Assembly: GCA_017622845.1 (NCBI GenBank)
Contig: JAGAQJ010000047.1
Location: forward strand, 92,053 to 156,052
Source: Lachnospiraceae bacterium
GTDB lineage: Bacteria > Bacillota > Clostridia > Lachnospirales > Lachnospiraceae
Direction of reading: 5' to 3'
DNA: 64,000 nt
A model generated the notes under the pieces. The model had not been told where the DNA came from. It saw only the letters and a program-made list of their open reading frames with translations, and did no database searches. The stretch's first letter is position 1. Every line of letters starts with the position of its first letter. The position numbers and the translations under genes are program-made. Shown piece after piece: positions 3,596 to 36,987 of this stretch.

Positions 3596-4864
3596 TTACC
3601 GGGGCGGATTGCATTTGCTACAAGGCTCATAACCCATGCGTTTTGCCTCGTCCAGCGTGATTAAAATATCACTTTTCTTCAAATATTGGCAGCCCTCACG
3701 ATGATACTTTTCCCCTGTCTTGGTAATATGTACTTCTACCGCTGTCTGCTGAGCCGCTTTCCCACTGTCTGACTGTATCTGCTGTTGTCCTGACTGGTCA
3801 TTTTCTGACTGCTTCTGCTGCTCCGCTGCATCATTTTCTGACTGCTTCTGCTGCTCCGCTGCATCATTTTCTGACTGCTTCTGCTGCTCTTCCGGCTGCT
3901 CCTCTTTCCGCACCTGCTGCGCACTGTTCTGCGTCGGTTCTCCTGCTTTCCAGGTCTGCGAAGGAGCACAATTCCAAGTAATAGCTGTGCCGTCGGATTC
4001 AGCGACAATACTTCCCTGTTCATCTGTTCGGAACACCTGAATCCCCATACTTCGAAATGTATTCAAGGTCTGCGCATGCGGATGTCCGTAAGAATTCCCC
4101 TCCGCACAGCTAATAACTGCATAGGACGGTGATACCTTCTCCATAAAACTTTCTGACGAAGAAGACTTAGACCCATGATGCCCTGCCTGATAAACGTCCG
4201 CGGAAATATCAATTCCTGTCTGCATCATATCACACTCGGCATTTTCCTCTGCATCACCCGTAAACAAAAAACGGTTCTTTCCATTCTGCAGAAGAAGTGC
4301 AACAGAAGCATTATTGGGATCGCTGTATGATGCACACGGACCGAGAATTGTAAATGAAGCGTTTCCCAAGTCATAAACACTTCCGACAGCAGGCGTTGTA
4401 TAGGAAATATTCTTATTATCCAACGCCTGTATTAATTTTAAATATGTCTTATTGTCCTTCTCATAATTTGATACAAAGACTTTATCAATATCAAATTTTG
4501 TTATCATAACAGGTGCACCGCCGATATGATCTGAATCAGGGTGCGTTAAAACCAGATAATCCAGCCGGGTAATGCCCTGCTTCATCAGATAATTTTGAAG
4601 CATGGTTCCTTTGGAATCGTCTCCGGCATCAATTAGCATAGAAGCTTCGCCGCATTTAATTAATGTGGCATCCCCTTGCCCAACGTCAATGAAATGGACC
4701 TCCATTAGTCCGTCAGAAGACTGTGTTTCTGTTGTTTCTTCCACATCCGTCAGAGTCACTTCCCGTGATGTTAAACGATTATCCTCTGTCTCCCCACAGC
4801 CTGTCACCGCAAGACATATCATGCAATAAAGCACACCTATGAAAAGCCTTCTTATTTTTCTCAT
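3596..4864 (-). CDS. ComEC-like metallo-beta-lactamase-fold lipoprotein with C-terminal Ada-like zinc motif
   Basis: The N-terminus is a lipoprotein signal ending in LAVTGC (Cys23 lipidated), so the protein should be anchored outside the membrane. Residues about 50-290 form a metallo-beta-lactamase domain with THPDSDHIGG and TGDAEENAE, like the C-terminal domain of ComEC/Rec2, but the ComEC membrane channel is absent. A Glu/Gln/Lys-rich linker follows with an 11-residue repeat (EQQKQSENDAA, about 2.7 copies). The last ~40 residues carry HREGCQYL and EPCSKCNPP, an Ada/nuclease-type Cys cluster. Similar stand-alone proteins are common in Clostridia; the substrate (nucleic acid or another phosphodiester) is unproven. 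AGAGG lies 8 bases before the ATG. Confidence 0.75.
   Translation of the reverse strand: MRKIRRLFIGVLYCMICLAVTGCGETEDNRLTSREVTLTDVEETTETQSSDGLMEVHFIDVGQGDATLIKCGEASMLIDAGDDSKGTMLQNYLMKQGITRLDYLVLTHPDSDHIGGAPVMITKFDIDKVFVSNYEKDNKTYLKLIQALDNKNISYTTPAVGSVYDLGNASFTILGPCASYSDPNNASVALLLQNGKNRFLFTGDAEENAECDMMQTGIDISADVYQAGHHGSKSSSSESFMEKVSPSYAVISCAEGNSYGHPHAQTLNTFRSMGIQVFRTDEQGSIVAESDGTAITWNCAPSQTWKAGEPTQNSAQQVRKEEQPEEQQKQSENDAAEQQKQSENDAAEQQKQSENDQSGQQQIQSDSGKAAQQTAVEVHITKTGEKYHREGCQYLKKSDILITLDEAKRMGYEPCSKCNPPR
3798..3889 (-). repeat. 33-bp tandem repeat inside the lipoprotein linker
   Basis: Two complete and one partial nearly identical 33-bp units (3798-3830, 3831-3863, 3864-3889) encode the 11-residue EQQKQSENDAA repeats. 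The near-identity at DNA level points to recent slippage or unequal exchange, so copy number may vary between strains. Confidence 0.85.
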
Positions 4865-19059: not shown

Positions 19060-20427
19060 TTAACGCCTTCCTCCAAGCAACTGCTTTACAGTTGACTGTG
19101 GATTGAAATACTCAATGTCATCCGGTACATTCTGACCATATGTCACATAGGAAAGCGCTGCACCCGTGTAAAGCTTGAGGTTATAAATGCTTCCTAATGT
19201 GGAGGTCTCATCAAGTTTCGTGAAGATTAATTTGTAATCGGCAATTTCCTTATAAGTATCTGCAATCTTCATCAAATCTTTATATTTTGTTGAGGCTGAC
19301 AGCACCAGGAAGACCTCTTTTGTAGCTGCTGTCTCTACGGAGCTGATTAAGTCACTCATGCTCTCGCACTGTGCTTCATTGTTTGGCGAGTGTCCCGTTG
19401 TATCTACCAATATATAATCATACTCCTGAAAATCGCTCACTGCTGCCGCGATTTCCTTTGCCGTGTATACTACCCGGAAAGGCACTTCCAAAATATTCGC
19501 ATAGGTTCTTAACTGCTCTGCTGCTGCAATTCTGTAAGTGTCTGCCGTGAGAAGCGCAACCTTTTTCTTATGCTCAACCCGGAAAGAGGATGCTATCTTC
19601 GCTATGGTTGTTGTCTTTCCTACACCTGTAGGACCCACAAAAAAGATTACCTTTGGCTTTTTCTCACCTTCCTCCATAACATACGGCTTTCCAAGCTTTA
19701 ATATCATTCTCTGATAAATTTCGGACAGCATAAAGTCCATCGTAACATCTGCCTTACAGTTCTTATCAATCTCATCAATGATTTCATTTGCATATTTCTC
19801 ATTCACTTCATTGTCAATCATCTTATTATACAGAAGTCTCAGGAAATTAATTCTTTCCTTATTTACTTCCGGCATCTGGCTTTCCTCACTCCTTGTGTCC
19901 TCTGCCGAAATTTTATTTTCCTGCTGTAAGAGCTGTTTTTCTATTAAATTCTGGAGATTGTCAAGCTTCTCCTCTAAACCGTTGCCTCTCAAATTATCTA
20001 TGGTTGGCTCTGCCTGCTTTACAGCAGGCTTCATAACTGCAACATTCGACGATTTTATTTCTGTCTTCTGCGCCGGAAAGGCAGAAAGCACATCCGCTAC
20101 CGCCTGTCCAACTGCCTTGACATCTTCGGCCGCTGCCCCTTGTCCTTCAGACTGCTTCATAGGAATAATTTTTCCCTGCCCTGCATTCATGCTCAGACTT
20201 ACTGCCACGCCATCTTTTTCCGTTTCCTTGACGGGATTCACACTATACTTTTCATTTTCTTCTTCCTTAGCTACAGTAACTTCTACCTTTGTTCCCTTAA
20301 AAATGCCAAGCATTCCTTTTCTTTTGATGGTCTTGACATTCATCTCTACAATCCCGTCACCAAGCTCTTTCTTTGCGCACTCCAGTGCGTCTTCCTTTGT
20401 TTTTCCCTGAAATTTCTTAATTATCAT
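19060..20427 (-). CDS. flhF: Flagellar SRP-like GTPase FlhF
   Basis: FlhF is an SRP-type GTPase that positions flagella. An N-terminal B domain (MIIKKFQGKTKEDALECAKKELG) and a disordered region precede the NG domain with G1 FVGPTGVGKTTTIAKIA, DTYRIAAAEQLRTYA, DTTGHSPNN and the TKLDET specificity loop. 455 aa. Its ATG overlaps the flhA stop codon by 4 bases, a sign of translational coupling. Confidence 0.96.
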   Translation of the reverse strand: MIIKKFQGKTKEDALECAKKELGDGIVEMNVKTIKRKGMLGIFKGTKVEVTVAKEEENEKYSVNPVKETEKDGVAVSLSMNAGQGKIIPMKQSEGQGAAAEDVKAVGQAVADVLSAFPAQKTEIKSSNVAVMKPAVKQAEPTIDNLRGNGLEEKLDNLQNLIEKQLLQQENKISAEDTRSEESQMPEVNKERINFLRLLYNKMIDNEVNEKYANEIIDEIDKNCKADVTMDFMLSEIYQRMILKLGKPYVMEEGEKKPKVIFFVGPTGVGKTTTIAKIASSFRVEHKKKVALLTADTYRIAAAEQLRTYANILEVPFRVVYTAKEIAAAVSDFQEYDYILVDTTGHSPNNEAQCESMSDLISSVETAATKEVFLVLSASTKYKDLMKIADTYKEIADYKLIFTKLDETSTLGSIYNLKLYTGAALSYVTYGQNVPDDIEYFNPQSTVKQLLGGRR

Positions 20428-22463
20428 GCTGTCACCATTCCTACTGATTGTAATTCAACATTTGAGTCTATCTCATTATATGATACCACTACCAAATCCT
20501 TATAATAATCCTCCGTCAGCCTCTTGAAATACATTCTGACAATCGGAGAGGTAATCACAATCGGATTTTTTCCAAGCTTCTCAAGCTTTCCAACCTCAGA
20601 TTCCACGGAAGCGATAATCGTTTTTGTCTTCTCCGGATCAAGCGTCAGGTATGCTCCCTGCTCTGTCTGTTTCACACTTCCCATAATTTCCTGCTCCAGA
20701 CCCGGATCAAGAGTTACTACGCTTGTCGTTTCATTCATCGGGAAGTATTTATTTGATATGGCACGCTTTAAGCTCTGCCTTACATATTCTGTTAAGATAT
20801 CCGTATCTCTCGTGGAAGCCGCATGGTCAGCAAGCGTCTCAAAAATTGTGACAAGGTCTCTTACGGATATGCCTTCCTTTAGAAGATTCTGCAATACCTT
20901 CTGGATATCTCCAAGTCCCAAAAGCTTCGGCACAAGCTCCTCCACAAGGGAAGGATTTGTTTCCTTGACATTGTTGACAAGATTCTGTACATCCTGCCTT
21001 GTAAGAAGGTCTGCAAGATACTGCCTGATAATCTCTGTCAAATGTGTTGCTATGATTGACGGCGGATCAACTACGGTATAGCCTACACTCTCTGCACGTT
21101 CTCTCTGGCTCTCTGTAATCCAGATCGCAGGCAGGTGGAAGGAAGGTTCAAAGGTCGGAATACCGGATATCTCTTCCTCCACGAAGCCGGGATTCATTGC
21201 CATATAGTGATCAAATAATATCTCACCTTCACTTACCTGAACTCCTTTTATCTTAATAATATACTGATTCGGATTTAACTGGATATTATCTCTCAGACGG
21301 ATAATCGGAACCACTGTACCAAGCTCCAAAGCAATCTGCCTGCGGATCATAACAACCCGGTCAAGCAGGTCGCCGCCCTGATTCACATCAGCAAGCGGTA
21401 TGATGCCATATCCAAACTCCAGTTCGATTGGGTCTACCTGCAGCAGGGAATTAACATTTTCCGGCTTCCTGATCTCGTCTGCCGTATCCTCCTCTGCGTC
21501 TGCCTCTGCCTCAATATTTGCCACCTCTATCGTAGAAGCAATCATACGTCCGCACACGATAAATATTACGCCTAAAACGACAAAAATCAAAGGATTCAGG
21601 GGTGTCACCAAGCCCAGAAATGCAAGCACCGCACCTACCATATAGAGTACTTTTGGTATGCCAAAGAGCTGATTGACAAGCACCGGACCAAAGTCGGCTT
21701 CCTTGGAACCCTTTGTAACAAGAATACCTGTTGACAATGAAATAAGGAGGGAGGGAATCTGGCTTACCAGACCATCACCAATCGTCAGAATAACATATTT
21801 ATCCAAAGCAGCGCCGATATCCATGTTCTGCCTTACGACGCCCATGATAATACCGCCCACAACATTAACGCCTGTTATAATAAGACCTGCCGTAGCGTCT
21901 CCTTTTACATATTTAACAGCACCATCCATAGAGCCAAAAAAGCTTGCCTCCTGCTGGAGCTTCTCTCTCTGCTTCTTTGCTTCTGCATCCGTGATGGCGC
22001 CTGTATTCAGGTCTGCATCGATAGCCATCTGTTTACCAGGCATGGCGTCCAGCGTGAATCTGGCTGTAACCTCAGCAACTCGCTCAGAACCTTTATTGAT
22101 AACGACAAACTGCACGATAATCAGGATAATAAATACAACAACACCGATAACAAGATCACCGCCGCCTACAAACTGTCCGAAAGTTGCGACTACGTTTCCC
22201 GGATCACCTGTTGACAGAATCAGACGGGTTGACGATACATTCAGCGCAATTCTGAAAATCGTCGTAAACAGCAAAATAGTCGGATAAAAGGATAAATCCA
22301 GGACCTCCTTTGCAAACATTGTAGTAAACAGGATCGTAAATGCCAGCGAAATATTTAACGCAAGCAGTACGTCCAGCAGCGTGCTGCTAATTGGTACAAT
22401 CAACATGATGATAGCGCTAAGTAAATATAAAGCTACACCTATGTCCGCTTTCTTCATCTTCAT
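20424..22463 (-). CDS. flhA: Flagellar export gate protein FlhA
   Basis: FlhA forms the nonameric gate of the flagellar type III export machine. About eight N-terminal membrane helices, the FHIPEP-family core (DAMPGKQMAIDADLNTGAI) and a ~330-residue cytoplasmic export-substrate domain are present; 679 aa. AGGGGG lies 10 bases before the ATG. The gene is separated from flhB by a 587-base region with a terminator and a tandem repeat array, unlike the tight spacing of its other neighbours. Confidence 0.97.
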   Translation of the reverse strand: MKMKKADIGVALYLLSAIIMLIVPISSTLLDVLLALNISLAFTILFTTMFAKEVLDLSFYPTILLFTTIFRIALNVSSTRLILSTGDPGNVVATFGQFVGGGDLVIGVVVFIILIIVQFVVINKGSERVAEVTARFTLDAMPGKQMAIDADLNTGAITDAEAKKQREKLQQEASFFGSMDGAVKYVKGDATAGLIITGVNVVGGIIMGVVRQNMDIGAALDKYVILTIGDGLVSQIPSLLISLSTGILVTKGSKEADFGPVLVNQLFGIPKVLYMVGAVLAFLGLVTPLNPLIFVVLGVIFIVCGRMIASTIEVANIEAEADAEEDTADEIRKPENVNSLLQVDPIELEFGYGIIPLADVNQGGDLLDRVVMIRRQIALELGTVVPIIRLRDNIQLNPNQYIIKIKGVQVSEGEILFDHYMAMNPGFVEEEISGIPTFEPSFHLPAIWITESQRERAESVGYTVVDPPSIIATHLTEIIRQYLADLLTRQDVQNLVNNVKETNPSLVEELVPKLLGLGDIQKVLQNLLKEGISVRDLVTIFETLADHAASTRDTDILTEYVRQSLKRAISNKYFPMNETTSVVTLDPGLEQEIMGSVKQTEQGAYLTLDPEKTKTIIASVESEVGKLEKLGKNPIVITSPIVRMYFKRLTEDYYKDLVVVSYNEIDSNVELQSVGMVTA

Positions 22464-22548
22464 GTCTTTGTTTCCCCCTTAACTCCTAAAAACTCCCTTT
22501 TTCTTTTTTAAATTTGAAAGCTTTGTTTCACTTTCCTTCCAATAGCTC

Positions 22549-22860
22549 GAAAGCTCCGCTTCCTCGTTACAATATCGGGTGAAAACAAGGTCTCGCACAG
22601 CTCGACTTTGTTTTCCTTCCGCTCTCGAAAGCTTCGCTTCCTCGTTACAATATCGGGTGAAAACAAGGTCTCGCATAGCTCGACTTTGTTTTCCTTCCGC
22701 TCTCGAAAGCTCCGCTTCCTCGCTACAATATCGGGTGAAAACAAGGTCTCGCATAGCTCGACTTTGTTTTCCTTCCGCTCTCGAAAGCTTCGCTTCCTCG
22801 TTACAATATCGGGTGAAAACAAGGTCTCGCATGGCTCGACTTTGTTTTCCTTCCGATATT
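22549..22860. repeat. Four tandem 78-bp hairpin-forming repeats
   Basis: Units at 22549-22626, 22627-22704, 22705-22782 and 22783-22860 are nearly identical. Each contains GAAAACAAGGTC ... GACTTTGTTTTC, a 12-bp stem (one G-U) with an 11-base loop. All differences I see between units are transitions outside the stem: one in the loop region, two in the linker. A degenerate partial unit seems to precede the array (22516-22548). Because 78 is a multiple of 3 and stops are absent, open frames of 104-117 codons run through it on both strands, but I read the array as non-coding. With the promoter candidate at 22865-22893 it would form most of the flhA 5' leader. Confidence 0.9.
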
Positions 22861-22864
22861 GTAA

Positions 22865-22893
22865 ATTATCTCACAATTTACATAATTTGTATA
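22865..22893 (-). promoter_or_regulatory. Possible promoter upstream of flhA with overlapping inverted repeat
   Basis: On the minus strand TATACA (22888-22893), a 17-base spacer and GATAAT (22865-22870); an alternative is TTTACA (22902-22907) with TATGTA (22879-22884). A perfect 8-bp inverted repeat TGTAAATT/AATTTACA (22860-22867, 22875-22882) overlaps it. Very AT-rich surroundings make chance matches likely. Confidence 0.4.
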
Positions 22894-22954
22894 TAATAAA
22901 ATGTAAAAATTTTTATTTTTTTTATTTTTTATACTTCTTACACAAATGAAACAG

Positions 22955-22993
22955 AAAAACTCTGTGCGTTTTTACCTGCAAACAGAGTTTTTT
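22955..22993. terminator. Terminator after flhB
   Basis: AAAAACTCTG pairs with CAGAGTTTTT around an 18-base loop; both strands have a T-tract. It lies 58 bases past the flhB stop codon and should end or reduce transcription before flhA. The 22464-23050 interval otherwise holds only the repeats and AT-rich sequence. Confidence 0.7.
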
Positions 22994-23050
22994 AATTTAC
23001 ATAATACATCTTTCCTGCAGTTTGCCCGGAAATATTATGTATACCCATAT

Positions 23051-24163
23051 TTATATTTTCCCTTGCATCTTGTATACCATCGCCAGTACTTCAGCAACTG
23101 CCTGGTACAGTTCCGGAGGAACCTCCTGTCCGATGTCCACATTGGCGTACAGCATACGGGCAAGCGGCTTGTTTTCTACAATCTCTACATGATTCTCTTT
23201 TGCAATTTCCTTGATCTTTTGCGCCACATAATCCGCGCCTTTCGCCAGAACAACCGGTGCCGATCCGATTGATGCATCATACTTAATCGCTACTGCAAAG
23301 TGCGTCGGGTTTGTGATCACGACATCTGCTCTCGGCACGTCCTGCATCATTCGCCTTTGAGACGCCTCTCGCATCTTACTCCTGATTTTTCCCTTAATCT
23401 GCGGGTCTCCTTCGGAATTCTTATACTCATCCTTTACCTCTTGCTTGGTCATCTTGATATCATCATTGAATTTTTTGCGCTGATAAAACAAGTCAACAAA
23501 TGCTATCACCATAAAAACAAGTGAAATCTTCAGCCCCATGTCGATAACAATGCTGCCGATCAGTTCAATTGCCTGATTGAGCGGCATTTCGTAAAATTTT
23601 ACAAGATATACCCAGTCATCCTTTATGGTTGAGTACACCACCGCCACAATGATAATCACCTTGGCAATTGATTTTAAAAGCTCTATGATTTTATCCTTGG
23701 AGAACAGCCTTTTCATTCCTGATACCGGATTCAGTTTGCTGAACTTGGGATGCAGCGGTTTCGTAGAAATCTGAAACTTGAACTGCAGCATGTTGATGCC
23801 GACTGCAAGGACAACGCCAACCACAAAAAAAGGAAGCAGTTGTGTCAGCAGCTCCACAAATACACCATTAAGCAGTATTCTGTAATCCTCTTTTACAATG
23901 CTGCCCCCCCAATAAGTCGTGTAAGCCGGAATCTTTTCATAAATTTCACTAAAAAGCTCCATAAAATTCTCGCCCATATGACCTATCCAGAACTTTAAAA
24001 TCAGAAAAAGCGCAATCAGCTCTACTCCGCTCGATAATTCTTTACTTTTCGGAACTTTACCTTCCTTACGGGTGTCCGTCTTCTTTTTGGCAGTCGGTTC
24101 CTCAGTTTTTTCACCGCCTGGTCCATCCTGCGCAAAAAACTGCAAATTGTATTCTAAAATCAC
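23051..24163 (-). CDS. flhB: Flagellar export switch protein FlhB
   Basis: FlhB is the substrate-specificity switch of the flagellar export gate. Four membrane helices lie in the N-terminal half, and the autocleavage motif NPTH starts at residue 285 (VVITNPTHFAVAIKYD); 370 aa. The GTG start at 24163 has GGAGGG 6 bases upstream and overlaps the fliR stop codon by 4 bases. Confidence 0.97.
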   Translation of the reverse strand: MILEYNLQFFAQDGPGGEKTEEPTAKKKTDTRKEGKVPKSKELSSGVELIALFLILKFWIGHMGENFMELFSEIYEKIPAYTTYWGGSIVKEDYRILLNGVFVELLTQLLPFFVVGVVLAVGINMLQFKFQISTKPLHPKFSKLNPVSGMKRLFSKDKIIELLKSIAKVIIIVAVVYSTIKDDWVYLVKFYEMPLNQAIELIGSIVIDMGLKISLVFMVIAFVDLFYQRKKFNDDIKMTKQEVKDEYKNSEGDPQIKGKIRSKMREASQRRMMQDVPRADVVITNPTHFAVAIKYDASIGSAPVVLAKGADYVAQKIKEIAKENHVEIVENKPLARMLYANVDIGQEVPPELYQAVAEVLAMVYKMQGKI

Positions 24164-26941: not shown

Positions 26942-28225
26942 TTATTTGATTATTTCCATAATTCTCACACCAAAGCTCTCCTCAATAACAACAACCTCTC
27001 CCTTTGCCACAAATTTGCCATTTACAAGCACATCGATCGGTTCTCCTGCAATCTTGTCAAGCTCTATGATAGTTCCGGGAGCAAATTCCAAAATATCGGA
27101 AATAGATTTGCTGGTTCTTCCCAGTTCTACTGTTACCTCCAAAGGAACATCCTTGATAAGACCAATACTCTCGGCGCTTACCATTTCTCCCTGTCCCTGT
27201 GAGAAGTTTTGGAACTGTGCCGGCTGAATATTTACATTTGGCATTCCGTACCCCGCAGGCATTCCGTACCCCGCAGGCATTCCGTATCCGCCCTGCGGCA
27301 TTCCCATATTCATCTGCGGCATATTGTATCCGCCCTGCGGCATTCCCATATTCATCTGCGGCTGCATCCCCATGTTCATACCGCCCTGTGGCATTCCCAT
27401 GTTCATCTGCGGCTGCATTCCCATGTCCATAGCCGGCGCCGCCGGTGCAGGTGCAGGTGTCGATGACGGAGCAGGTGATGGTGCTGCTGGCGCCGGAGCA
27501 GGTGATGGTGCCGGTTCTCCCATCTGTTGAGCCATAAAAGTATCATAAATTGATTTTGCAAAATCAAGCGGATATAACTGCATCAATGTAGAATCTACCA
27601 AATCATCAATCTGCATTCTGAAAGAAATTTTAACAAATCGTTCCTCAAGGAACGGTGAAAGGTCTCTTGGTTCCCTTGAATGCAAATCAACAAGGCTTGC
27701 CTCTGGCGGACTGATATCAATTGTCTTTCCAAGCATGGAAGAAAGCGAGGTGGACGATGAACCCATCATCTGATTCATAGCCTCTGAAATCGCACTTAAA
27801 TGCAGTTCACTCAGCTCGCCATCAATATTGGTACCGTCACCGCCCATCATTAAGTCAGTGATAACCTTAACATCATGCTCTTTTAAAACTAATATATTCG
27901 TACCGTTTAAACCAACCGTATATTTAATCTGTATAAATACACAGGGCTTCTCATAATCGCTGAGCACATCCTCCCAAGTACACATTTGTACAACAGGTGT
28001 TGTAATATTTACTTTTTTATTGACAAGTGAATAAAGCGTCGTAGCTGAAGTACCCATACTAATGTTGGCTACCTCTCCTATCGCATCTTTCTCTATATCG
28101 GTGAGATCATCCCCCGTGGAAGCGTCCATCGTCGCTGCCGCAGTATCTGCTGCTCCGGAATCGGCTGATAAGTCTACTCCATTCAACAATGCATTGATTT
28201 CATCCTGAGATAGCATTCCATCCAT
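26942..28225 (-). CDS. fliY: Flagellar motor switch phosphatase FliY
   Basis: FliY combines a CheC-like CheY-P phosphatase with a FliN-type C-ring domain. It starts with a CheY-binding-like peptide (MLSQDEINALL), then two phosphatase helices (DAIGEVANISMGTSATTL, AISEAMNQMMGSSSTSL). A Pro/Ala then Met/Gly/Pro/Gln-rich linker (~residues 240-330; repeated NMGMPQGG) leads to the C-terminal SpoA/FliN domain (VPLEVTVELGRTSKSISDIL). 427 aa, longer than the Bacillus protein because of the linker. Confidence 0.95.
   Translation of the reverse strand: MDGMLSQDEINALLNGVDLSADSGAADTAAATMDASTGDDLTDIEKDAIGEVANISMGTSATTLYSLVNKKVNITTPVVQMCTWEDVLSDYEKPCVFIQIKYTVGLNGTNILVLKEHDVKVITDLMMGGDGTNIDGELSELHLSAISEAMNQMMGSSSTSLSSMLGKTIDISPPEASLVDLHSREPRDLSPFLEERFVKISFRMQIDDLVDSTLMQLYPLDFAKSIYDTFMAQQMGEPAPSPAPAPAAPSPAPSSTPAPAPAAPAMDMGMQPQMNMGMPQGGMNMGMQPQMNMGMPQGGYNMPQMNMGMPQGGYGMPAGYGMPAGYGMPNVNIQPAQFQNFSQGQGEMVSAESIGLIKDVPLEVTVELGRTSKSISDILEFAPGTIIELDKIAGEPIDVLVNGKFVAKGEVVVIEESFGVRIMEIIK
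27230..27440 (-). repeat. Repeats encoding the Met/Gly-rich FliY linker
   Basis: Imperfect short repeats encode variants of MGMPQGGYNMPQ and AGYGMP; for example two adjacent 21-bp copies encode AGYGMPAGYGMP near 27240-27285. They would form a flexible linker whose length may differ between strains. Confidence 0.75.
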
Positions 28226-35829: not shown

Positions 35830-36987
35830 TTATTCTACTGCCGCATTGTTTTCTGTATCACGGTTTTCCGTGCTGCCAGAATCTTTGCTGTCATCAGTGA
35901 CAACTGTATTTTCAACGCTTCCTGTACTGTCAGTCTCACTGCTGTCTGTGTTTCCTGTACTGTCAGTCTCACTGCTATCTGCATTTTCCGTGCTGTCTGT
36001 CTTGCTGCTGTCGGTGCTTTCTGTACTATCAGCCTTACTGCTGCCGGTGCCTTCTGTACTATCCGTTTTGCTGCTGTCGGTACTTTCCGCGCCGTCTCCA
36101 GTACTGTCAGTCTTATCAGCTTCTGTATTGTCAGTCTGATTGCTGCTGACGTTTTCCGTGCTGTTTACAGCATCATTATTTCCGCTGCTTTGAGTTGTCT
36201 GCTCCTTGTCCGCAGCCACTGTCAGAAGATTCAGCTTGTCAATAATCGCATTCATCTTTGTATTAAAGCTTTCCAGAATGTCATTTAATGATGTCTGTTC
36301 CTCGGCTTCCTCTGCTTCAGTTGACTTAAATTCAACACCATAATCCTTCATCTTGGCAACCCACTGAACTAATGTATTCAGCTCTTCTGATGCATATGTC
36401 ACCATGAATTTCTTCTGATAATCATCCATCTCAAAGTTATACTGCTCATAAAGCTTGGTAATCACATCTGCATAAGACTTGTCAGCATACTTGATATTAG
36501 GCAGCGCATTGATATTGGCTGCAAACTCTGAATAAATATCGTATGCCTTAGAATATTCATCGCTTACAACGCTGTCCAAATCACTAAGAGAATATTTTTC
36601 ATCATCAATTACAAGAATCGGCTTACTGTCTTCCATGAGAACATAGTCAACAACACCTTGCTTATAAGAGACATCTCCTGTACTCTCACTGGTTACCTTC
36701 ATGATAACTTCCTTGCCAATCAGCTCGTTTGCACGAAGCATGTCAACGGACTCCGCCATCTCTGTCATCTTTTCAACCTGTGTGAAGGTCGCATATTGTG
36801 AAACCCACTCCGTATTGCTTGTCGGCTCCAACGGGTCCTGATTCTGCATCTCTGCCACCAGAAGCGTCAGAAACATATCGCTGTCTACCGTACTATTGTC
36901 TTTCCCCTTTTTGGTAAGGGAATCTCCTGATGTGGTTTGTGTCTGTAAGGTACCGTCTTCCCCTACGGGTGCGATTAAACTTCCCAT
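35830..36987 (-). CDS. flgD: Hook-capping scaffold protein FlgD with acidic Ser/Thr-rich tail
   Basis: FlgD caps the growing hook. The N-terminal FlgD signature (DMFLTLLVAEMQNQDPLEP, QYATFTQVEKMTEMAESV) and a CESTGD-like middle domain (VKGKEVIMKV position: LIGKEVIMKVTSE) are present. The protein is 385 aa because ~110 C-terminal residues form a Ser/Thr/Asp/Glu repeat tail (units like DSSKTDSTEST) absent from typical FlgD. The order fliK-flgD-orf-flgE is standard. Confidence 0.92.
   Translation of the reverse strand: MGSLIAPVGEDGTLQTQTTSGDSLTKKGKDNSTVDSDMFLTLLVAEMQNQDPLEPTSNTEWVSQYATFTQVEKMTEMAESVDMLRANELIGKEVIMKVTSESTGDVSYKQGVVDYVLMEDSKPILVIDDEKYSLSDLDSVVSDEYSKAYDIYSEFAANINALPNIKYADKSYADVITKLYEQYNFEMDDYQKKFMVTYASEELNTLVQWVAKMKDYGVEFKSTEAEEAEEQTSLNDILESFNTKMNAIIDKLNLLTVAADKEQTTQSSGNNDAVNSTENVSSNQTDNTEADKTDSTGDGAESTDSSKTDSTEGTGSSKADSTESTDSSKTDSTENADSSETDSTGNTDSSETDSTGSVENTVVTDDSKDSGSTENRDTENNAAVE
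35880..36140 (-). repeat. Tandem repeats encoding the FlgD tail
   Basis: Imperfect ~30-bp repeats (for example the stretches coding TDSSETDSTGN and TDSSKTDSTES) encode an acidic Ser/Thr-rich tail. The similarity at DNA level suggests expansion by slippage; copy number may vary between strains. Confidence 0.75.

Follow-up and report, generated by a model that had tools for sequence, protein, structure and literature searches.

Introduction

The BOX elements of S. pneumoniae are described as dispersed intergenic repeats with a folded RNA form and variable tandem modules, in which large copies hold open frames on both strands and which are partly co-transcribed with their neighbours (PMC3049150). 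REPs are described as hairpins of 20–40 bp that are associated with RAYTs, carry GTAG or CGTC as an unpaired tag and lie mainly on the downstream side of genes; the edge of GTAG REPs supplies stop codons, and both clusters and tandem copies occur (PMC3733652). The bcr repeats of the B. cereus group are intergenic with conserved folds, some being MITE-like, and about half are transcribed in UTRs or operons, with bcr3 correlated with mRNA decay (PMC3446304).

An array of four hairpin units occupies the flhB–flhA gap of the window, by which is meant the whole 64,000-nucleotide stretch of Lachnospiraceae DNA that was analysed, and its diverged relatives, here called R1 elements, allow comparison with these systems. 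BOX is the nearest in architecture: R1 elements are likewise dispersed, folded and tandem, and the window array has open frames on both strands, but BOX repeats only the middle boxB between boxA and boxC (PMC3049150). In R1 arrays the repeat comprises the entire unit, with no separate end modules apparent by eye, BOX being known here by description. With REP, REPIN and BIME sequences R1 shares extragenic hairpins, stop codons at the element edge and tandem copies (PMC3733652), but it spans 70 positions with 25 pairs and its GTAA-like foot lies mostly inside the outer stem, whereas the REP tag is unpaired. Like bcr repeats, R1 elements are Gram-positive intergenic repeats with conserved folds, and the account of bcr against which they were compared, taken by description, makes no mention of tandem leader arrays at −10 boxes (PMC3446304). 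The best reading of its class is a REP/BOX-like hairpin in a loose sense, and not a coding sequence, a metabolite riboswitch or a RAYT-type REP. From sequence comparison, we put a probability of about 0.6 on the array being a tandemly multiplied, non-autonomous hairpin DNA element inserted at the flhA transcription start. Full-text literature on repeats, structured RNAs, mRNA decay and GCGAAGC, covered by titles and the starts of abstracts and with few subscription journals, gave no description recognised as the R1 family.

The flhB–flhA array

Both flanking genes lie on the minus strand in the ORF list (flhB at 23051–24163; Table 1), the name flhA resting on the first-pass annotation and on what we take to be its usual identity. 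The gap between them holds a 78-bp unit repeated 4.0 times head to tail at 96% match with no indels (TRF, 22546–22855), and a 24-mer of the unit was found four times at up to three mismatches, compared with 0.00 expected in shuffles. On the flhA strand, each unit comprises two hairpins, the core and a second, small one. The copy nearest flhB (copy 1) forms one long imperfect palindrome in which TTACAATATCGG pairs with CCGATATTGTAA, and copies 2–4 are missing the 5′ arm of this outer stem. By eye, TATTGGAAGGAAAG at the 3′ end of the array is a direct repeat of TATCGGAAGGAAA at its 5′ end.

Table 1. Positions of the array, its parts and the adjoining flhA signals in the window.
Feature	Position	Strand	Basis
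flhA, downstream of array	20424..22463	-	679-aa ORF
Ribosome-binding region, purine-rich, AGGAGTTAAGGGGG	22474..22487	-	sequence
Partial extra unit start TATTGGAAGGAAAG, bounds 3′ end of array	22531..22544	-	by-eye sequence comparison
Four 78-bp tandem units	22546..22857	-	TRF, sequence
Second small hairpin, copy 4	22546..22566	-	sequence
Second small hairpin, other copies	22624..22644, 22702..22722, 22780..22800	-	sequence
Core hairpin copy 4, outer stem reduced	22563..22632	-	R1 match, 66.4 bits
Core hairpin copy 3, outer stem reduced	22641..22710	-	R1 match, 68 bits
Core hairpin copy 2, outer stem reduced	22719..22788	-	R1 match, 67.2 bits
Core hairpin copy 1, 5′-most on flhA strand, full outer stem	22797..22866	-	R1 match, 83.6 bits
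Putative −10 box GATAAT, TG before it, abuts copy 1	22865..22870	-	promoter consensus scan, genus conservation
−35-like TATACA, 17-base spacer to −10	22888..22893	-	scan; surrounding stretch conserved in genus

In the register 22549–22860, the copies differ internally at four columns (22556, 22567, 22598 and 22599, with their equivalents), which fall in the linker and in the loops of the core and second hairpins, and comparison of the four copies column by column agrees with the first-pass annotation that the stem is invariant. That annotation had also called all differences transitions, which is correct for the four internal columns but not for the far end, where three more columns differ (22856 C/A, 22858 C/A and 22860 C/T) because copy 4 in this register runs into unique flank. 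A single unit folds to −22.4 kcal/mol on the plus strand (z −3.38; 2 of 200 shuffles as good) and to −22.5 kcal/mol on the minus, flhA strand, where the value is unremarkable (z −1.67; 12 of 200 as good); for the core hairpin alone, z is −3.85 on the plus and −2.94 on the minus strand. No Rfam family reached its gathering score in the window stretch or in 13 related loci, the best sub-threshold match in the window being frnS (28.1 bits vs. 60).

A minus-strand inverted repeat, ACTCTGTTTGC...GCACAGAGTTTTT, follows flhB at about 22950–22995, is found in similar form in many genus mates and is probably the flhB terminator, and a terminator scan restricted to short loops did not report it. Other tandem repeats reported by TRF in the window, with units of 18–51 bp, lie at 3798–3889, 27240–27431 and 35917–36087.

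Open frames of 104–117 codons run along both strands of the array, and the minus-strand repeat frames 22479–22832 and 22508–22822 pass the curated cut-offs of two protein families, Pfam ANAPC15 (32 vs. 27 bits) and NCBIfam RsaX20_sORF (32.1 vs. 30). It is nevertheless barely credible that the 117-codon frame encodes a repetitive small protein. With a unit length divisible by 3, any frame open in one copy will also be open in the others, and the two matches, to unrelated families, are probably artefacts of repetition. In related arrays outside the window, where units are spaced 89–128 bp apart, only 17 of 44 spacings are multiples of 3 and 27 are not; on this ground the coding reading was rejected, and the view of the first-pass annotation that the array is non-coding was upheld. 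Spurious repeat frames of this kind are an annotation trap.

A dispersed family of hairpin elements

Searches with DNA alone found little, as the 78-mer has no close match in its own genome beyond the array, and a search of 60 relatives, its own genome included, yielded no more than 26 matching bases in a single other genome. Among 397 genomes of the family, weak matches appeared in 20 others, a few of them arrays with a period of 106–114. A 16-base piece of the unit occurred in 66 stretches of genome contigs, which is close to chance by our own estimate, with the best extensions reaching about 25 bases; plasmid and phage collections contained no match to the repeat, and viral contigs none to one exact core pattern.

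The covariance model R1 was built on diverged relatives, with 18 seed sequences of which two came from the window. It matched in 67 of 397 family genomes (E ≤ 0.001), 14 of 38 genus genomes (E ≤ 0.01), 34 of 392 order genomes (E ≤ 1e-4; 26 from the same family and 8 from three other families) and 3 of 398 phylum genomes, all three in the window's own family; each tally includes the window's own genome, and those over many genomes are lower bounds, with 12 candidates scored per genome. Scoring more candidates in six genomes rich in the element yielded 13, 23, 26, 28, 48 and 51 matches (E ≤ 1e-4), counts that include a few opposite-strand matches of the same element. Within genomes, mean identity between elements is 0.61–0.92 vs. 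0.22–0.37 in the outer flanks, and in G146 (51 matches) an identical element occupies unrelated loci (L207 and L208). By these model matches, the window array belongs to a dispersed, multi-copy family of hairpin elements. As to the concern that the unit might be found nowhere else, it holds for the 78-mer within its own genome but not for the R1 family, which is multi-copy and dispersed across relatives.

Contigs of G146 and G229 often end at R1 elements (e.g., L209–L211, L226 and L237–L240), and copy numbers from draft genomes are underestimates because assemblies break there. A nearly identical element, scoring 82.2 bits in every case, occurs in five genera (L119 and L122–L125, in G399, G067, G340, G290 and G084), and at L081–L084 and L079, which belong to this near-identical set, flanking bases are shared as well; either unusual conservation or transfer could account for it.

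Placement at promoters and stop codons

Placement was read in 60 regions from the six rich genomes together with further loci, giving 93 array loci with 141 counted copies, which are not independent because 60 of them come from six genomes. L077, L098 and L100 repeat other loci and were excluded from the counts of placement, spacing, stem pairing, loop motifs and direct repeats; counts of −10 boxes use 90 of the 93 loci, those of direct repeats use 85, and neighbouring genes are mechanical ORF calls. The next gene lies in the sense direction at 70 of the 82 loci with one called and faces the opposite way at 12, five of which have an opposite-strand TATAAT-like box at the edge and seven do not. 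Between co-directional genes, 46 elements are sense and 7 antisense; 19 loci lie between divergent genes, and 5 of the 77 with both neighbours called lie between convergent ones, whereas BOX is described as over-represented there (PMC3049150).

A TATAAT-like box (at least 5/6) stands just before or overlaps the model start in 62 of 90 loci, compared with 4–12 in equal control windows further upstream; one offset accounts for 47 of the 62, a second for 14 and a third for 1. A −35-like hexamer accompanies it in 31 of these 62 loci, against 3 at a control spacing, and TG precedes the −10 box in 31 loci. In 20 of 90 loci, the stop codon of the preceding gene lies at the element edge, four of these also having a −10 box, and 12 of 90 have neither. 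Some elements of the stop-codon type follow a gene that we take, by eye, to be groEL-like. As far as sequence can tell, R1 thus has a near-fixed −10 offset or a stop-codon site, and its side differs from that of REPs, which are described as lying mostly downstream of genes (PMC3733652): the next gene is in sense in 70/82, a −10 box is at the edge in 62/90 and a stop codon in 20/90.

Such placement at starts, together with orientation, a strong covariation and a conserved internal loop in the core (see below), would suit a cis-regulatory leader RNA proper, riboswitch-like or protein-bound, that is maintained for regulation and is no mobile repeat. That reading is nonetheless improbable. The 30 downstream proteins scanned, from 41, are unrelated in function, with Pfam matches of unrelated kinds in 28 and none in 2; no Rfam family was reached at gathering score; and within one genus the element is present at some and absent from other orthologous flhA and leuB–ilvD sites. 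A riboswitch regulon was rejected on the diversity of the 28 sets of Pfam matches, with none in the remaining 2. No transposase was present among the 30 scanned proteins.

Copy number per locus is 1 in 61 loci, 2 in 19, 3 in 11, 4 in the window and 5 in one, with spacings of 78 to 128 bp across all arrays. The arrays are polar, as later copies (n = 48) keep a mean of 3.5 of 6 outer-stem pairs, compared with 5.7 in first or single copies (n = 93), and, among 32 arrays, the outer stem of the first (5′) copy is the best in 26, equal in 5 and worse in 1.

Fold, covariation and strand bias

Covariation was read from the best 150 (137 distinct) of 205 R1 matches, fitted to the model; some of the 205 are on the opposite strand, the loci were chosen among high-scoring matches, and weak further copies are missed because the alignment stops at the best 150 (L143, one of the searched sources, ranked below these). 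In these 150 rows, 91.5% of cells pair, and 21 of 25 pairs have changes on both sides, in 529 cells, values that 0 of 500 shuffles reach and for which slid versions give 28–74 cells. When the 18 seeds were aligned without structure, 14 pairs already showed changes on both sides. The core hairpin has a conserved asymmetric internal loop, and the second-hairpin stretch of the 93 related loci folds to −7.8 vs. −3.4 kcal/mol in mononucleotide shuffles, being lower in 91 of 93.

The fold has a preferred strand: in the two main stems, the flhA strand has 68 G.U pairs vs. 17 A.C mismatches. On this strand, 87 of 145 core loops are three-base GNA loops, which also occur in 58 of 93 second-hairpin windows. 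All 103 occurrences of GCGNAGC in 138 distinct elements are on the sense strand, while 48 kb of upstream flank holds 8 and 8 on the two strands, although the fold and loop counts are not independent because the elements are related by descent. As judged from the alignments, R1 is a covarying and strand-biased fold. The outer pairs 4-66 to 7-63 are formed in 58–60 of 60 promoter-type copies, and three of these four pairs occur as several pair types. Given a transcription start some seven bases past the −10 box, they would lie upstream of the transcript.

The placement, orientation and strand bias of R1 suit a leader RNA, while the outer pairs and GNA loops suit a folded single DNA strand. It is possible, but on balance unlikely, that R1 works purely as a site in folded single-stranded DNA and has no function as RNA. 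It would then be a substrate of recombination or transposition, MITE-like or attC-like in its working, whose presence in leaders is a by-product of insertion location. The outer pairs are kept though they lie upstream of the expected start, the strand bias in G.U pairs over A.C mismatches would suit a single DNA strand equally well as RNA, and the loop motif, so one-sided by strand, includes GCGAAGC, reported to form a DNA mini-hairpin of extraordinary stability with a melting temperature of 78 °C (PMC4686876). The bias in orientation relative to the next gene, with 46 sense and 7 antisense between co-directional genes, is unexplained by such a site itself, and the search for Y1_Tnp found no enzyme for it. 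Integron attC sites likewise form arrays in which DNA sites fold strand-specifically and keep conserved bases unpaired; R1 differs in that an R-box consensus was not apparent by eye and no cassettes lie between copies. In terms of MITE terminal inverted repeats, the R1 core is a palindrome, but the second hairpin falls outside the core.

The flhA promoter and its leaders across the genus

The first 150 amino acids of FlhA matched in 32 of 38 genus genomes, of which 30 loci were read, and a promoter motif ending in GATAAT was recognised at 21 of these 30. The consensus scan taken alone is weak support for a promoter, because it gives 3 sites vs. 1.4 expected in shuffles. A transcription start at about 22858 is predicted, and the flhA leader that the first-pass annotation had proposed from this point gains from the recurrence of the promoter at the 21 loci and from the scan. 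An AAGGGGG or GAAGGGGG-like stretch precedes the start codon in many genus flhA loci too.

Behind the promoter, the leaders vary widely. Nine of the 21 loci have leaders of 48–70 nt with little structure (L250, L252, L254–L256, L258 and L260–L262), and others have hairpins of other sequence (e.g., L248, L249, L251, L257 and L264), among them L257 with a perfect stem of 26 bp and L248 with stems of great length. One diverged copy of the R1 element is present in L253 (G006; 36.7 bits), L263 apparently holds a remnant, and L249 compared with L254/L255 looks like the clean insertion of a different hairpin. The same promoter is followed by varying leaders, and therefore the promoter belongs to the host, with hairpins that come and go behind it; the flhB–flhA gap of this genus looks like a hot spot for them. 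Read from these loci, the R1 element is present in some species and absent in others behind the same flhA promoter. The variable copy number suspected by the first-pass annotation thus holds between species, with four copies in the window and one diverged copy in G006 behind the same promoter, the comparison covering species only, at one genome per species.

Possible insertion marks and the search for a mobilising enzyme

The window's genome carries a second, diverged R1 copy straight after the stop codon of what we take, from protein sequence, to be leuB and before what we take to be ilvD, and 29 other genus leuB–ilvD loci gave no R1 match. This copy lies between ATTTAATAGC and ATTCAATAGC, which could represent a duplicated target. 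Direct repeats scoring at least 9 were found at 12 of 85 loci, compared with 4.6% in mismatched controls, many of them containing TATAAT, and target-site duplication at R1 elements is suggestive only. Another hairpin-rich insertion lies right after the leuB stop in L302 (G024), bounded by AGAATATAG, a direct repeat of 9 bases in which the stop codon is contained, and L309 (G014) has the short form.

The first-pass annotation had proposed a REP/BIME-like element, which fits loosely, as R1 is a dispersed hairpin repeat, but fails in the strict RAYT sense. A REP/BIME element of a RAYT (Y1 transposase) system would share with R1 the dispersed imperfect hairpin, GTAA at its foot and the edge stop codons of some loci, as in GTAG REPs (PMC3733652). 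Against this, Y1_Tnp (PF01797) was missing from 7 of the 10 genomes searched (repeat-rich ones and the window's own), with G146 and the window's genome among the seven, and no R1 match was found around the four Y1_Tnp matches in the remaining three; the size, paired foot and 5′ placement of R1 differ from those of REPs as well. That R1 belongs to such a system is very improbable, and RAYT as a present-day partner was rejected in the genomes searched.

Proposed course of events and significance

On the preferred reading of a mobile, non-autonomous hairpin, an R1-type element would have inserted at the flhA start, behind the host promoter at 22865–22893, and slippage, or recombination between the direct repeats at either end of the array (TATCGGAAGGAAA and TATTGGAAGGAAA), may then have added copies. 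Transcription from the conserved −10 box would start within the first hairpin and produce a leader of about 395 nt containing four cores. The structured 5′ end might slow 5′-end-dependent decay of flhA mRNA or serve as a processing site, and would not work through ribosome access: folding gave mean unpaired probabilities for the ribosome-binding region of 0.69, 0.76, 0.75, 0.75 and 0.79 with 4, 3, 2, 1 and 0 units, so that access hardly changes with copy number, and sequestration by the array was dropped for want of a strong sign. An action of the array on flhA mRNA through decay or processing at its structured 5′ end is put forward tentatively, at somewhat less than even odds. An effect on stability is weakened by the B. 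cereus account, in which 5′ structure is not globally correlated with mRNA stability (PMC3446304), and an RNA role leaves the conserved outer pairs unexplained because these lie upstream of the expected start. A bolder and rather unlikely extension is that the mobile hairpin targets starts, its GNA-capped single-stranded fold being inserted strand-specifically beside the −10 box at DNA opened by the polymerase. If this were true, the element would install itself as the 5′ end of a host message and then multiply in tandem.

Reports of small dispersed hairpin repeats such as REP and BOX place most of them behind genes or between convergent genes, and R1 sits mostly at promoters; its near-fixed offset and prevailing orientation would expose either a new choice of insertion site or a reusable 5′-end module of mRNA. 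Both ideas are directly testable because the flhB–flhA gap of one genus offers natural pairs with and without the element before a flagellar export gene. Spurious frames and assembly breaks at R1 arrays also matter for annotation. More broadly, R1 elements may show small DNA elements reshaping the beginnings of bacterial messages.
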